DNA from: Pseudovibrio axinellae
Lineage (GTDB): Bacteria > Pseudomonadota > Alphaproteobacteria > Rhizobiales > Stappiaceae
Direction: 5' to 3'
Length of the DNA stretch: 64,000 nt
NCBI RefSeq assembly: GCF_900110875.1
Contig: NZ_FOFM01000001.1
Location: 744,001-808,000 of the forward strand
The notes under the pieces are model-generated. The model was not told the DNA's origin. It was given only the letters and a program-made list of their open reading frames with translations, and ran no database searches. Within the stretch, counting starts at the first letter, position 1; every line of letters begins with the position of its first letter. Below are positions 8,457 to 11,112 of this stretch, piece by piece. Made by a program: the position numbers and the translations under genes.

Positions 8457-9776
8457 TTAGTCTGCCAGCGATTCTGTTGCTTCTACTTTAAGGCCAAAAC
8501 CCTCAAGACCAACGTAATGGCGTGCGCGTGAAGCAATCACCCGGATCGAGTTTGCACCAAGATCCTTCAGAATTTGTGCACCCAAGCCAACTTCACGCCA
8601 ATCTTCCGAGCGGCCCTGAGCTGAGACATGCTGCTCATCTTCGGCTGCTTCAAGGTTATCGCGTTGACGATGAGGTTTACTGGCAACACCGACTGCACCT
8701 TCACGCAGGTACACGAAGATACCACGCCCCCTCTTAGCAAAGTCTTCCAAGGTCTTTTCGATAGGCTTAACTTGCCCGGTCACCGCATCCAACACATTTT
8801 CAAGATGAAGCCGTACAGGAATGTTTTGGCCATCACGAATGTCACCATAAACCAACGCCAAGTGACCAATATTGTCAAACGGCGTGGAGTATACAATCGC
8901 CCGCGCTTTCCCCGCCGGTGTATCAACATCAAACTCATCAGTGCGCTTAACAAGGTTTTCGTGGCGCTGACGCCAAGCAATCAGATCTGCAACAGAAACC
9001 TTCTTCAGATTATGTTCACGTGCAAACTCTTCTACCTGTTCGCCTTGTTTGACAGTGCCATCATCGTTCACCAACTCACTAATGACGCCGACCTCAGGCA
9101 GGCCTGTGAGCTTACACAGATCGACCGCAGCTTCGGTATGGCCAGAGCGCATAAGAACGCCCCCTTCTTTCGCCACAAGCGGGAAGACATGCCCCGGGCG
9201 AACAAAGTCACCAGAACTAGCATTTGGATTTGCAAGGCCGCGTACCGTTGCACAGCGCTGCTCAGCAGAGATGCCAGTCGTCAAGCCTGGCGCGTAGTCA
9301 ACCGAGACGGTGAACGCTGTAGCCAACGGTGCATCGTTCGAGCCAACCATAGGATCCAGATGTAAGCGCTTTGCTTCTTTGGGTGTCATAGGAGCACAAA
9401 CAATACCGGAGGTATGGCGGACGATGAACCCCATTTGCTCCGGCGTAATCAGGCTGGCCGCAACAATGAGATCACCTTCATTTTCGCGATCATCATCATC
9501 AGTTACGACAACCATTTCGCCTTTTTCGAAGGCGCGAAGGGCTTCAGCCACTCTCGATTGAGACACGACGTACTCCTTGTTTTCTTTTAGTCCGAGAAAA
9601 TCGTTTGGCGTCACCTGATGGTCCGTCGCAACTGCGATCTTTTGGGCCATTTCTCGAGAGATCCATGCGCTTGGATCGTTACATAAAGCGGTTACAGATG
9701 CAGGAGACAAACAAGCGCGACGTGCAAAAGCACTTCTACTTTCTCCAGTTTTTTCCAACCATTCGGTCAAGCGCAT
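8457..9776 (-). CDS. ribB: HTH - RibB (DHBP synthase) - degenerate GTP cyclohydrolase II fusion
   Basis: The 439-residue protein has three parts. Residues 1-62 read as a Cro/XRE-type helix-turn-helix (TEWLEKTGESRSAFARR, then LSPASVTALCN). Residues ~72-275 are 3,4-dihydroxy-2-butanone-4-phosphate synthase, which makes the four-carbon unit of riboflavin from ribulose 5-phosphate, with DDDDRENEGDL (residues 94-103), HTSGIVCAPM and RSGHTEA. Residues ~285-439 resemble GTP cyclohydrolase II but lack its zinc-binding cysteines, as in RibBX proteins. ATG 9776 is preceded by AAAGGGGAT; an in-frame ATG at 9842 lies upstream of the predicted transcription start. An in-frame GTG with its own ribosome binding site lies at 9566. 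No FMN riboswitch is visible upstream. Confidence 0.9.
   Translation of the reverse strand: MRLTEWLEKTGESRSAFARRACLSPASVTALCNDPSAWISREMAQKIAVATDHQVTPNDFLGLKENKEYVVSQSRVAEALRAFEKGEMVVVTDDDDRENEGDLIVAASLITPEQMGFIVRHTSGIVCAPMTPKEAKRLHLDPMVGSNDAPLATAFTVSVDYAPGLTTGISAEQRCATVRGLANPNASSGDFVRPGHVFPLVAKEGGVLMRSGHTEAAVDLCKLTGLPEVGVISELVNDDGTVKQGEQVEEFAREHNLKKVSVADLIAWRQRHENLVKRTDEFDVDTPAGKARAIVYSTPFDNIGHLALVYGDIRDGQNIPVRLHLENVLDAVTGQVKPIEKTLEDFAKRGRGIFVYLREGAVGVASKPHRQRDNLEAAEDEQHVSAQGRSEDWREVGLGAQILKDLGANSIRVIASRARHYVGLEGFGLKVEATESLAD
9564..9578 (-). promoter_or_regulatory. Internal Shine-Dalgarno and GTG start at the HTH/RibB junction
   Basis: On the minus strand AAGGAG (9573-9578) is followed after six bases by an in-frame GTG (9564-9566), codon 71 of the fusion. 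Translation from here would give a 369-residue RibB-RibX protein beginning with VSQSRVAEALRAFEKG, very like the N terminus of stand-alone RibB proteins. The element is seen directly; its use is inference. Confidence 0.6.
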
Positions 9777-9799: not shown

Positions 9800-9818
9800 A
9801 TTTCAGTATCACTGAAAT
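9800..9818 (-). promoter_or_regulatory. 19-base perfect inverted repeat, candidate operator of ribB
   Basis: ATTTCAGT and ACTGAAAT flank a 3-base spacer. The element begins 24 bases upstream of the ribB ATG and about 10 bases after a consensus -10 box, so it would cover roughly +3 to +21 of the transcript. The position and symmetry fit a dimeric HTH repressor, and the obvious candidate is the HTH domain of the protein itself. Confidence 0.65.
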
Positions 9819-9827
9819 CAACCTTTT

Positions 9828-9856
9828 ATTATAAAAAATCAAGAGGTAAAATTAAA
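9828..9856 (-). promoter_or_regulatory. Putative ribB promoter
   Basis: On the minus strand a perfect TATAAT (9828-9833) is preceded at 17 bases by TTTAAT (9851-9856), a weak -35 match. The predicted transcription start is near 9821, just before the inverted repeat. Confidence 0.5.
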
Positions 9857-9959: not shown

Positions 9960-9988
9960 AAGGGCGTCGGTTCGCCCCAACGCCTTTT
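9960..9988 (-). terminator. Intrinsic terminator after aroC
   Basis: On the minus strand GGCGTTGG and CCGACGCC pair (8 base pairs, one G-U) around the loop GGCGAA, followed by C and five T residues. It lies 33 bases after the aroC stop and separates aroC from ribB. Confidence 0.8.
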
Positions 9989-10020: not shown

Positions 10021-11112
10021 TTAACGCTCTCCGCACTGGCCTCGGTCACGCAGCACGTGATCAGCCAGAACACAGGCCATCATCGCCTCTCCGACAGGCA
10101 CGGCACGGATACCAACACATGGATCGTGGCGACCTTTGGTCATCACATCCACCTCTTCACCACTACGGGTGATTGATTTGCGCGGTGTGAGAATGGAGGA
10201 GGTCGGCTTTACAGCAAAGCGAACAACGAGTGGTGCACCGGACGAGATACCACCCAGCACGCCCCCGGCTTGGTTAGATAGGAAATCTGGCTTGCCATTC
10301 GCGCCCATACGCATTTCGTCAGCGTTTTCTTCGCCAGTCAGGCAGGCAGCTTCAAAGCCATTGCCAATTTCGACACCCTTTACTGCGTTTATGGACATCA
10401 TAGCCGAAGCCAGGTCTTGATCCATTTTACCGTAAAGGGGGGCTCCTAATCCTACTGGTACATTTTCAGCAATAACTTCGATGACAGCGCCAATAGAAGA
10501 ACCCGCTTTACGAAGGCCATCAAGGTACTCCTCATAGAAGGCAGCAGCTTCTTTGTCCGGGCAAAAAAACGGATTGTTATGTATCTCGTTCCAGTCCCAA
10601 TTATCGCGATTGATCTTGTGTGGCCCCATCTGCACGAGCGCACCGCGCACCCGTATATTCGGGATAACCTTGCGCGCCAAACCACCTGCTGCCACACGCG
10701 CAGCAGTTTCACGGGCTGAAGAACGCCCACCCCCGCGATAGTCACGAATGCCGTATTTGGCGTCATACGTGTAGTCTGCATGACCGGGACGGTAGCGCTC
10801 TTTGATCTCGGAGTAGTCTTTTGAACGCTGATCGGTGTTTTCAATCATCAGTGAAACAGGTGTGCCGGTCGTGCGCTGCACACCTTCTTCATCCACCATC
10901 ACACCGGAAAGGATTTTCACTTGGTCCGGCTCACGGCGCTGTGTGGTAAACTTGTTCTGGCCAGGTTTACGCTGGTCCAAATACACCTGTATCTCTTCGG
11001 CAGTAATAGGAAGAAGTGGCGGACAACCATCCACGACACAACCCAAAGCTGGCCCGTGGCTTTCGCCCCAGGTTGTTACACGAAACAGATGGCCAAAGGT
11101 GTTATGTGACAT
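10021..11112 (-). CDS. aroC: Chorismate synthase
   Basis: The 363-residue protein makes chorismate from 5-enolpyruvylshikimate-3-phosphate, the last common step of aromatic amino acid and folate synthesis, and needs reduced FMN. The N-terminal signature [17 protein letters not shown] is present, as is the [17 protein letters not shown] segment with the active-site Ser and Arg residues. The third conserved block is seen near [20 protein letters not shown]. Length matches the bacterial family. It depends on reduced flavin, and its neighbour downstream is a riboflavin gene, though a terminator separates them. Confidence 0.97.

Follow-up and report, generated by a model that had tools for sequence, protein, structure and literature searches.

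A RibB enzyme with a fused helix-turn-helix and a candidate operator at its own gene in Pseudovibrio and related bacteria

Introduction

The Escherichia coli proteins BirA, PutA and NadR each combine in one polypeptide a metabolic enzyme and a repressor of pathway genes, and the signals to which they respond are known. The 64,000-nucleotide stretch of Pseudovibrio axinellae DNA analyzed here (the window) encodes a protein of similar design at positions 8457..9776 of the minus strand, in which an N-terminal helix-turn-helix (HTH) is fused to the riboflavin-pathway enzyme RibB. As in these three proteins, an enzyme and a proposed repressor would share one chain, but the HTH and the pathway are different. 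Sequence comparisons indicate that HTH-RibB is quite probably both a riboflavin enzyme and a transcriptional autorepressor that binds at its own gene and at ribN. Most likely, the enzyme thereby governs the line that supplies it, namely its own gene and, in one family, the gene of a probable vitamin B2 transporter.

Autoregulation is common among XRE/Cro-like regulators. HTH-RibB shares with such regulators (SinR, HigA, CylR2, DdrO and C proteins) a predicted five-helix HTH fold and a palindromic candidate site, but its dimerization part, unlike theirs, is a metabolic enzyme. A second related group are the RibBX proteins, whose description is reportedly due to Brutinel 2013 and Nouwen 2021. 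As cited in PMC10012899, RibBX likewise joins a RibB domain to a tail resembling GTP cyclohydrolase II (GCHII) that lacks the zinc and ring-opening residues; the relevant passages of that paper mention no DNA-binding domain, whereas here an HTH precedes RibB and a candidate operator precedes the gene. The nearest functional parallel is the archaeal protein RbkR, which joins an HTH to a riboflavin enzyme (PMC8305020). Its HTH is N-terminal, and the protein also regulates genes. However, RbkR belongs to another domain of life, is a CTP-dependent riboflavin kinase rather than a RibB homologue, and its HTH is presumably unrelated. No CTP-dependent riboflavin kinase domain was found among the Pfam matches of HTH-RibB at E ≤ 1.

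Among the controls of bacterial riboflavin genes, riboswitches that respond to flavin mononucleotide (FMN) are the best known, and the control of ribB without a riboswitch is less clear. An excerpt of PMC3766115 states that, in most species of Proteobacteria, one biosynthetic gene is under FMN control, either ribB or ribH2. In the open-licence literature of PubMed Central, no description of an HTH-RibB fusion, or of the HTH-CoaBC fusion considered below, was found among titles, abstract openings and passages, and the term helix-turn-helix does not occur in a 2026 review of riboflavin regulation (PMC13028884). In the present case, RibB, which supplies a lumazine precursor, seems to act on the gene that encodes it as well as on that of a probable importer, and a protein repressor and an FMN riboswitch would meet at one gene. 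As the enzyme, the operator, the regulon and the specificity-determining residues can all be named, the idea is testable.

Domain architecture

The open reading frame starts with the ATG at 9776 and encodes 439 amino acids followed by a stop codon. A preliminary description of this locus had recognized an HTH, a complete DHBP (3,4-dihydroxy-2-butanone 4-phosphate) synthase and a GCHII-like domain in one frame, which the translation, the Pfam matches and the structural model confirm. Based on Pfam and on our alignment, the catalytic RibB domain spans residues 74-275 (8952..9557, minus strand). The family DHBP_synthase matches residues 78-268 of the 439-residue protein with 263.9 bits, TIGR00506 also exceeds its cut-off, and the catalytic motifs DDDDRENEGD, TGIS, RPGH and RSGHTEA are invariant or nearly so in a 24-row alignment. 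The GCHII-like tail covers residues 276-439 (8460..8951, minus strand) and is matched by GTP_cyclohydro2 over residues 278-432 (97.9 bits). Apart from HTH-RibB-X, neither a RibB nor a PF00925 protein was found in the 5.13-Mb genome of the strain (99.9% complete), whose closest named relatives by protein comparison are Pseudovibrio.

The N-terminal XRE/Cro-like HTH (residues 1-62; 9591..9776, minus strand) is less easily seen with sequence profiles. A search against HTH families, suggested in the preliminary description, retrieved the expected families HTH_3 and HTH_26, but with scores under the Pfam cut-offs: HTH_3 reaches 16.7 bits with the whole protein and 20.3 bits with residues 1-70, against a cut-off of 23. 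HTH_26 exceeds its cut-off for one orthologue (locus L149). Because of these low scores, we assigned the domain from its AlphaFold2 model, its Foldseek neighbors and its conservation. The preliminary description depended on residues 1-62 adopting an HTH fold, and residues 1-66 are modeled with confidence as a five-helix HTH (pLDDT 87; helices at residues 3-10, 14-20, 25-33, 41-50 and 57-60). The third of these helices is the predicted recognition helix (PASVTALCN, with A at residue 30; 9678..9704, minus strand). Foldseek returned SinR, HigA, DdrO, CylR2 and C.AhdI as structural neighbors, with a probability of about 1 and a TM score of about 0.7, although the best E-value was just 0.059 for this small domain. 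The model of the full-length protein (pLDDT 68.5) is too poor for judging contacts between domains. Finally, the ratio of nonsynonymous to synonymous substitution rates (dN/dS) for codons 1-62 ranged from 0.016 to 0.065 in three of the nine pairs compared, those three being unsaturated, which indicates that these codons are under purifying selection.

A candidate operator upstream of ribB

A perfect 7-3-7 palindrome, TTTCAGT-ATC-ACTGAAA, lies at 9801..9817 (no strand assigned), 25-41 bp upstream of the ATG and within the 244-bp gap between aroC and ribB; it extends to 8-3-8 if positions 9800-9818 are counted. The same palindrome is present at orthologues. We scored the 150 bp upstream of each gene against this motif (maximum score of 14) and considered scores of at least 12 as matches. 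Such a score was reached by 101 of 102 distinct regions upstream of genes with this HTH, by none of the 42 regions upstream of genes without it (41 scored at most 10 and one scored 11) and by 5 of 2040 mononucleotide shuffles. The motif was derived from the same HTH-bearing loci, and therefore the HTH-less set and the shuffles carry the weight of this comparison. The 42 HTH-less regions include that of one ribB fused to a different HTH (L158) and those of seven zinc-type or RibB-only proteins. These results suggest that HTH-RibB has a candidate operator of its own at its own promoter, as enzyme-repressors do. A TTG codon at 9842 was considered as an alternative start and rejected: the conserved palindrome sits between 9842 and 9776, and relatives use the ATG.

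The palindrome might instead belong to a separate XRE regulator, with the HTH of RibB being a relic or a surface for dimer or partner contacts. Some genomes do contain free-standing short frames (70-154 amino acids) that match the same HTH profile. Nevertheless, we consider this explanation very improbable: the palindrome is confined to ribB genes with this HTH and is absent even from HTH-less close kin, its variants follow changes in the recognition helix that RibB carries (see below), and the HTH codons are under purifying selection.

Co-variation of operator and recognition helix

The operator and the recognition helix were compared across 129 of the 130 HTH-bearing loci (L230, whose helix could not be parsed, was left out). 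Operators of the type TTTCAGT are paired with helices such as SPASVTAL, those of the type TTTTAGT (or TTTAAGT) with TPGAITQL or SPAAVTQL, and those of the type TATTAGC with TQGRVSQL. When residue 30 is A, S or G, position 4 of the operator is a C in 187 of 188 half-sites; when it is Q or H, the position is T or A in 63 of 70. Similarly, where residue 25 is Q, 21 of 22 half-sites have A at position 2 (both arms at 10 of 11 loci and one arm at the remaining one), whereas all other residues are associated with T (236/236 half-sites; 118/118 loci). Among the 12 loci with R at residue 27, position 7 is C in both arms at nine, in one arm at two and in neither at one; C in both arms never occurs among the other 117 loci. 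Residues 25 and 30 presumably correspond to the base-contacting glutamines of the 434 repressor.

At four loci (L208-L211), Q was noted at residue 30 before the upstream DNA was read. Two of these (L209 and L211) turned out to have palindromes without C at position 4, L208 has a lopsided site and L210 has none. Switching of the operator together with the recognition helix in several lineages constitutes a natural data set on HTH specificity. The suggestion of the preliminary description that the protein controls its own gene is well supported at the level of sequence, since the palindrome occurs only with the fused HTH and co-varies with its recognition helix.

Within the TATTAGC clade, locus L220 (genome G761) carries A instead of Q at residue 25, and its site is CTTTAGC-N3-GCTAAAG, with T at position 2. 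This locus represents a natural test of the predicted specificity.

Regulon and FMN riboswitches

No match within the window attains the gathering score of an Rfam family and, consequently, no FMN riboswitch (RF00050) precedes this ribB, in agreement with the preliminary description. The genome contains two perfect copies of the operator in all, one at ribB and one near the riboswitch of ribN. The latter, TTTCAGTTAGACTGAAA (L144:2944-2960), is located 58 bp 5' of the sole FMN riboswitch of the genome (G000:C55:32232-32384), which is followed by a gene for a 299-residue EamA transporter. This protein is RibN-like and a probable riboflavin transporter. Alphaproteobacterial RibN is reported to carry an FMN riboswitch and gammaproteobacterial RibN is not, according to an excerpt of PMC4418817. 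A candidate protein operator and an FMN riboswitch are thus stacked before one transporter gene.

We then considered all 39 above-cut-off riboswitch loci of the family of Pseudovibrio, which are distributed in 36 genomes (a sub-threshold match in G001 was left out). The operator was found 5' of 31 of the 33 riboswitch-ribN loci and at none of the six riboswitch-ribH loci. A riboswitch match is lacking altogether in 25 of the 61 family genomes, a count obtained under stricter filters. Among HTH-less genomes from outside the family, 13 of the 16 above-cut-off riboswitch loci were read (nine ribH, three ribN and one undetermined), and the site was found at 0/9, 0/3 and 0/1 of these, respectively; the undetermined locus belongs to a genome (G069) whose ribB is a fragment. 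The pattern TWTTAGYNNNRCTAAWA was searched genome-wide in 23 genomes whose clades have operators of the other types; it was found exactly once in 22 and not at all in G679. All 22 sites are located at ribB, and the reversed control pattern yielded three matches across the 23 genomes. Because the pattern was derived from those ribB sites, the new information is that there is no second site. These results suggest a regulon confined to the HTH-ribB gene in the clades that have other types of operator, and control that extends beyond it, to ribN, in the family of Pseudovibrio.

The preliminary description also raised an association of the fusion with loss of the FMN riboswitch. We could not establish such a link at ribB: one riboswitch is retained in the genome, at ribN, beside the operator. 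The remaining three of the 16 loci outside the family were placed by coordinates: in G097, one riboswitch precedes an HTH-less ribB by about 180 bp (G097:C141:260984-261910), and in G065 two riboswitches lie about 1.7 kb 5' of ribBA. Based on these placements, some HTH-less ribB genes of the order are under riboswitch control, and the HTH and the riboswitch may be alternative controls of this gene.

We also evaluated whether the regulon could be wider. One site with a single mismatch (G000:C67:57798) is flanked by a probable urate-oxidase-like gene on one side and by the gene of an ABC-transporter binding protein on the other, both named from reading their sequences. We rejected this candidate because, by our own estimate, chance alone would yield about one site of this kind.

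A proposed model of autorepression

The RibB of E. coli functions as a homodimer. By analogy, one dimer of HTH-RibB would present two N-terminal HTH heads, which would occupy the two arms of the 17-bp palindrome (TTTCAGT-N3-ACTGAAA) in the promoter of ribB. When RibB is plentiful, the promoter would be blocked and the transcription of ribB lowered. In the family of Pseudovibrio, HTH-RibB would also bind 5' of the ribN riboswitch, such that riboflavin synthesis and uptake would be throttled jointly at initiation, and the riboswitch would separately add FMN control at ribN. The fusion, its domains, the candidate operator, the two-gene regulon and the co-variation are read in the DNA itself. From these we infer the binding, the geometry of the dimer, repression as its sign and, as signal, either how much RibB is present or its catalytic state. 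It is also possible that a ligand is bound by the catalytic domain or the tail.

A ligand-gated trigger enzyme, in which flavin, GTP or ribulose 5-phosphate would switch the HTH from the tail or the catalytic domain, was suggested in the preliminary description and would refine rather than replace the autorepressor proposed here. RbkR, with its HTH and riboflavin enzyme in one protein (PMC8305020), constitutes a precedent, but the tail is alike in relatives with and without the HTH and is hence not tied to it. We hold this refinement tentatively, at somewhat under even chances.

The position of the operator relative to the promoter is informative about the sign of the regulation. A TTG-N16-18-(-10) pair whose -10 element ends 5-8 nt before the ATG was identified at 66 of the 130 loci, against a shuffle expectation of 2.1 that was counted in a 4-12 nt window, and in 44 of those 66 loci the -10 element ends exactly 6 nt before the ATG. 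This suggests that ribB transcripts start at the ATG, as leaderless mRNA, in many of these bacteria. The operators start mostly about 69 or 42 bp before the ATG, or about 25 bp in one clade, and most of them fall into three classes: far (63/130 loci; 64-72 bp before the ATG), near (44 loci) and a third class of 11 loci (24-26 bp). The TTG at the -35 place is located inside the operator in 24 of the 44 near-class loci and downstream of it in 60 of the 63 far-class loci. We favor repression because of the close spacing of the -10 element to the ATG and because of the TTG found inside near-class operators.

Alternatively, the HTH could bind this operator and the protein could activate ribB as well as ribN, as might happen once the enzyme is loaded with substrate or product. 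Provided that the ATG is also the transcription start, far-class sites would be centered near -60, and such a center is a usual place of a class I activator. By contrast, sites of the near class cover the -35 place and those of the third class lie near the -10 element, both of which fit occlusion; moreover, inspection by eye shows a weaker second copy, or a half-site, overlapping the -35 at some loci of the far class (for example, L083 and L018). We consider activation unlikely, although more probable than a separate regulator.

Several observations weigh against autorepression by HTH-RibB. Far-class sites lie upstream of the -35, which is also compatible with activation, and no sigma-70-type promoter was found in the region upstream of ribB in the window. 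One HTH-bearing locus (L210) has no clear palindrome (score of 11), and the operator data stem mostly from related species. There are exceptions to the rule for residue 30 (L037, L108, L236, L238, L242 and L243), including a Q paired with a perfect CC site in L238. On the tree, five independent contrasts were supported, of which on average 4.4 pointed in the same direction and none in the opposite (sign test, P = 0.06-0.25); because independent contrasts are few, the co-variation is suggestive but not significant. Two family ribN loci (in G010 and G054) have no site. Finally, when two mismatches are allowed, the genome contains 33 sites relative to 24 for the reversed pattern, which is not a clear excess.

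A purine-rich stretch resembling a Shine-Dalgarno sequence precedes the ATG in the window. With this stretch present and no sigma-70-type promoter found, Pseudovibrio may differ from the leaderless pattern. The upstream neighbor on the strand of ribB is aroC (10021-11112, minus strand), and terminator-like stem-loops are found between the two genes at 9961..9984 of the minus strand (two found versus a mean of 0.3 in shuffles). This separation suggests that ribB is probably its own transcription unit.

Distribution of the fusion

We analyzed the distribution of the fusion in a kinship sample of 101 genomes, with 61 from the family of Pseudovibrio (its own genome and 60 others) and 40 from the order. 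This family, which includes Roseibium, Stappia and Pannonibacter, is the one we take to be the Stappiaceae. All 61 family genomes align from residue 1 in one frame without a stop codon. The preliminary description would have been undermined by relatives that start at residue 71; among the 61 family genomes sampled there are none, but outside of the family relatives often start near that residue. Among the 40 order-level genomes, three (G079, G082 and G087) align from residue 1 and a fourth (G089) carries a different HTH.

Across 397 genomes of the order, the HTH profile matched in 102 at E ≤ 1e-5, and about 74 were counted as HTH-RibB from the E-value and an open frame. A full-length match or a reading of the DNA confirmed 58 of these 74, and the other 16 were counted by E-value and open frame alone. 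At least eight families (f1, f20, f23, f28, f35, f36, f42 and f221) carry the fusion. In a class-wide sample, the HTH of the window, used as a narrower query (E ≤ 1e-6), matched five of 385 genomes (one being its own), each time in a frame of 440 amino acids or more; two of the five (G142 and G366) were assigned to another order by the grouping used. The named carriers among the best 80 of 528 confirmed candidates include Roseibium, Stappia, Pannonibacter, Xanthobacter, Ancylobacter, Aquabacter, Bosea, Microvirga, Phreatobacter and Labrys, and close RibB proteins without the HTH were found in two Cohaesibacter records and one Tepidamorphaceae record. On a quick tree of 135 proteins, the presence and absence of the HTH requires at least six changes, for which gains and losses are indistinguishable. 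As read from these sequences, the fusion is real, conserved in frame and present in at least eight families of the order. A vitamin B2 enzyme with a DNA-reading head is thus present in numerous relatives of root-nodule bacteria.

Tail domain and a possible gap in the riboflavin pathway

The preliminary description of the tail as GCHII-like without zinc cysteines holds. Residues 276-439 contain no cysteine and hence lack the zinc motif C-x(8-12)-C-x-C of GCHII; the EGRGIG, DTxxAN and TNNPxK motifs of the GCHII active site are missing as well. The zinc motif is present in none of the 130 tails of HTH-bearing proteins. The C-terminal 370 residues thus have the composition of a RibBX, a kind of protein of which modulation of RibB activity by the X domain is a further expected trait. 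Relatives with and without the HTH have the same kind of tail, and therefore the tail is not tied to the HTH.

No PF00925 protein besides the RibB tail was found in 50 of the 61 family genomes, and the zinc motif is found in none of the 30 family tails read; consequently, the GTP cyclohydrolase of the pathway seems to be missing. A strong homologue (at least 374 bits) of the creatininase-family formamidase BrbF was found in 60 of the 61 family genomes, and the remaining one (G030) holds a second PF00925 copy with zinc cysteines. The missing cyclohydrolase bears on the undiscovered enzyme named "BrbG" in an excerpt of PMC9478397. We also considered that the tail could be an active zinc-free GTP cyclohydrolase that operates beside the BrbF-like formamidase. 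This was rejected as the main explanation: the catalytic and GTP-base motifs are gone, and ten genomes of the order (G062, G063, G066, G068, G071, G074, G080, G082, G092 and G099) have a zinc-less RibB tail without a strong BrbF-like protein. One of them, G080, also shows a second, weak PF00925 match.

Other HTH-enzyme fusions

In this order of alphaproteobacteria, the Cro-like HTH could be a portable self-control module that was grafted repeatedly onto enzymes of vitamin and coenzyme synthesis: onto RibB, onto CoaBC and, in the form of an HTH that looks unrelated, onto RibB a second time (L158). Each HTH would read a 7-3-7 palindrome near the start of its own gene, so that the cell would measure the enzyme and not the vitamin, and in the family of Pseudovibrio this would be a first gate before the FMN riboswitch. 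We give this idea roughly even chances; it is plausible but thin, as it derives from the two sets of loci described below.

CoaBC (Dfp) is the phosphopantothenoylcysteine decarboxylase/ligase. In family f32, an HTH of the same profile is N-terminal to CoaBC at six fetched loci (L223-L228; for example L225:518-1957:+), three of which were run against Pfam. A 7-3-7 palindrome resembling ATTACAT-N3-ATGTAAT was found about 25 bp upstream of the start at three of the six loci (7/7, 6/7 and 6/7) and is weak or absent at the other three. At locus L158 (425-1783, minus strand; genome G089), a different XRE HTH (HTH_31; 46.5 bits, above its cut-off) is in frame with RibB, and the palindrome GTTGCCA-AAA-TGGCAAC lies upstream. 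This second HTH-RibB fusion is apparently independent.
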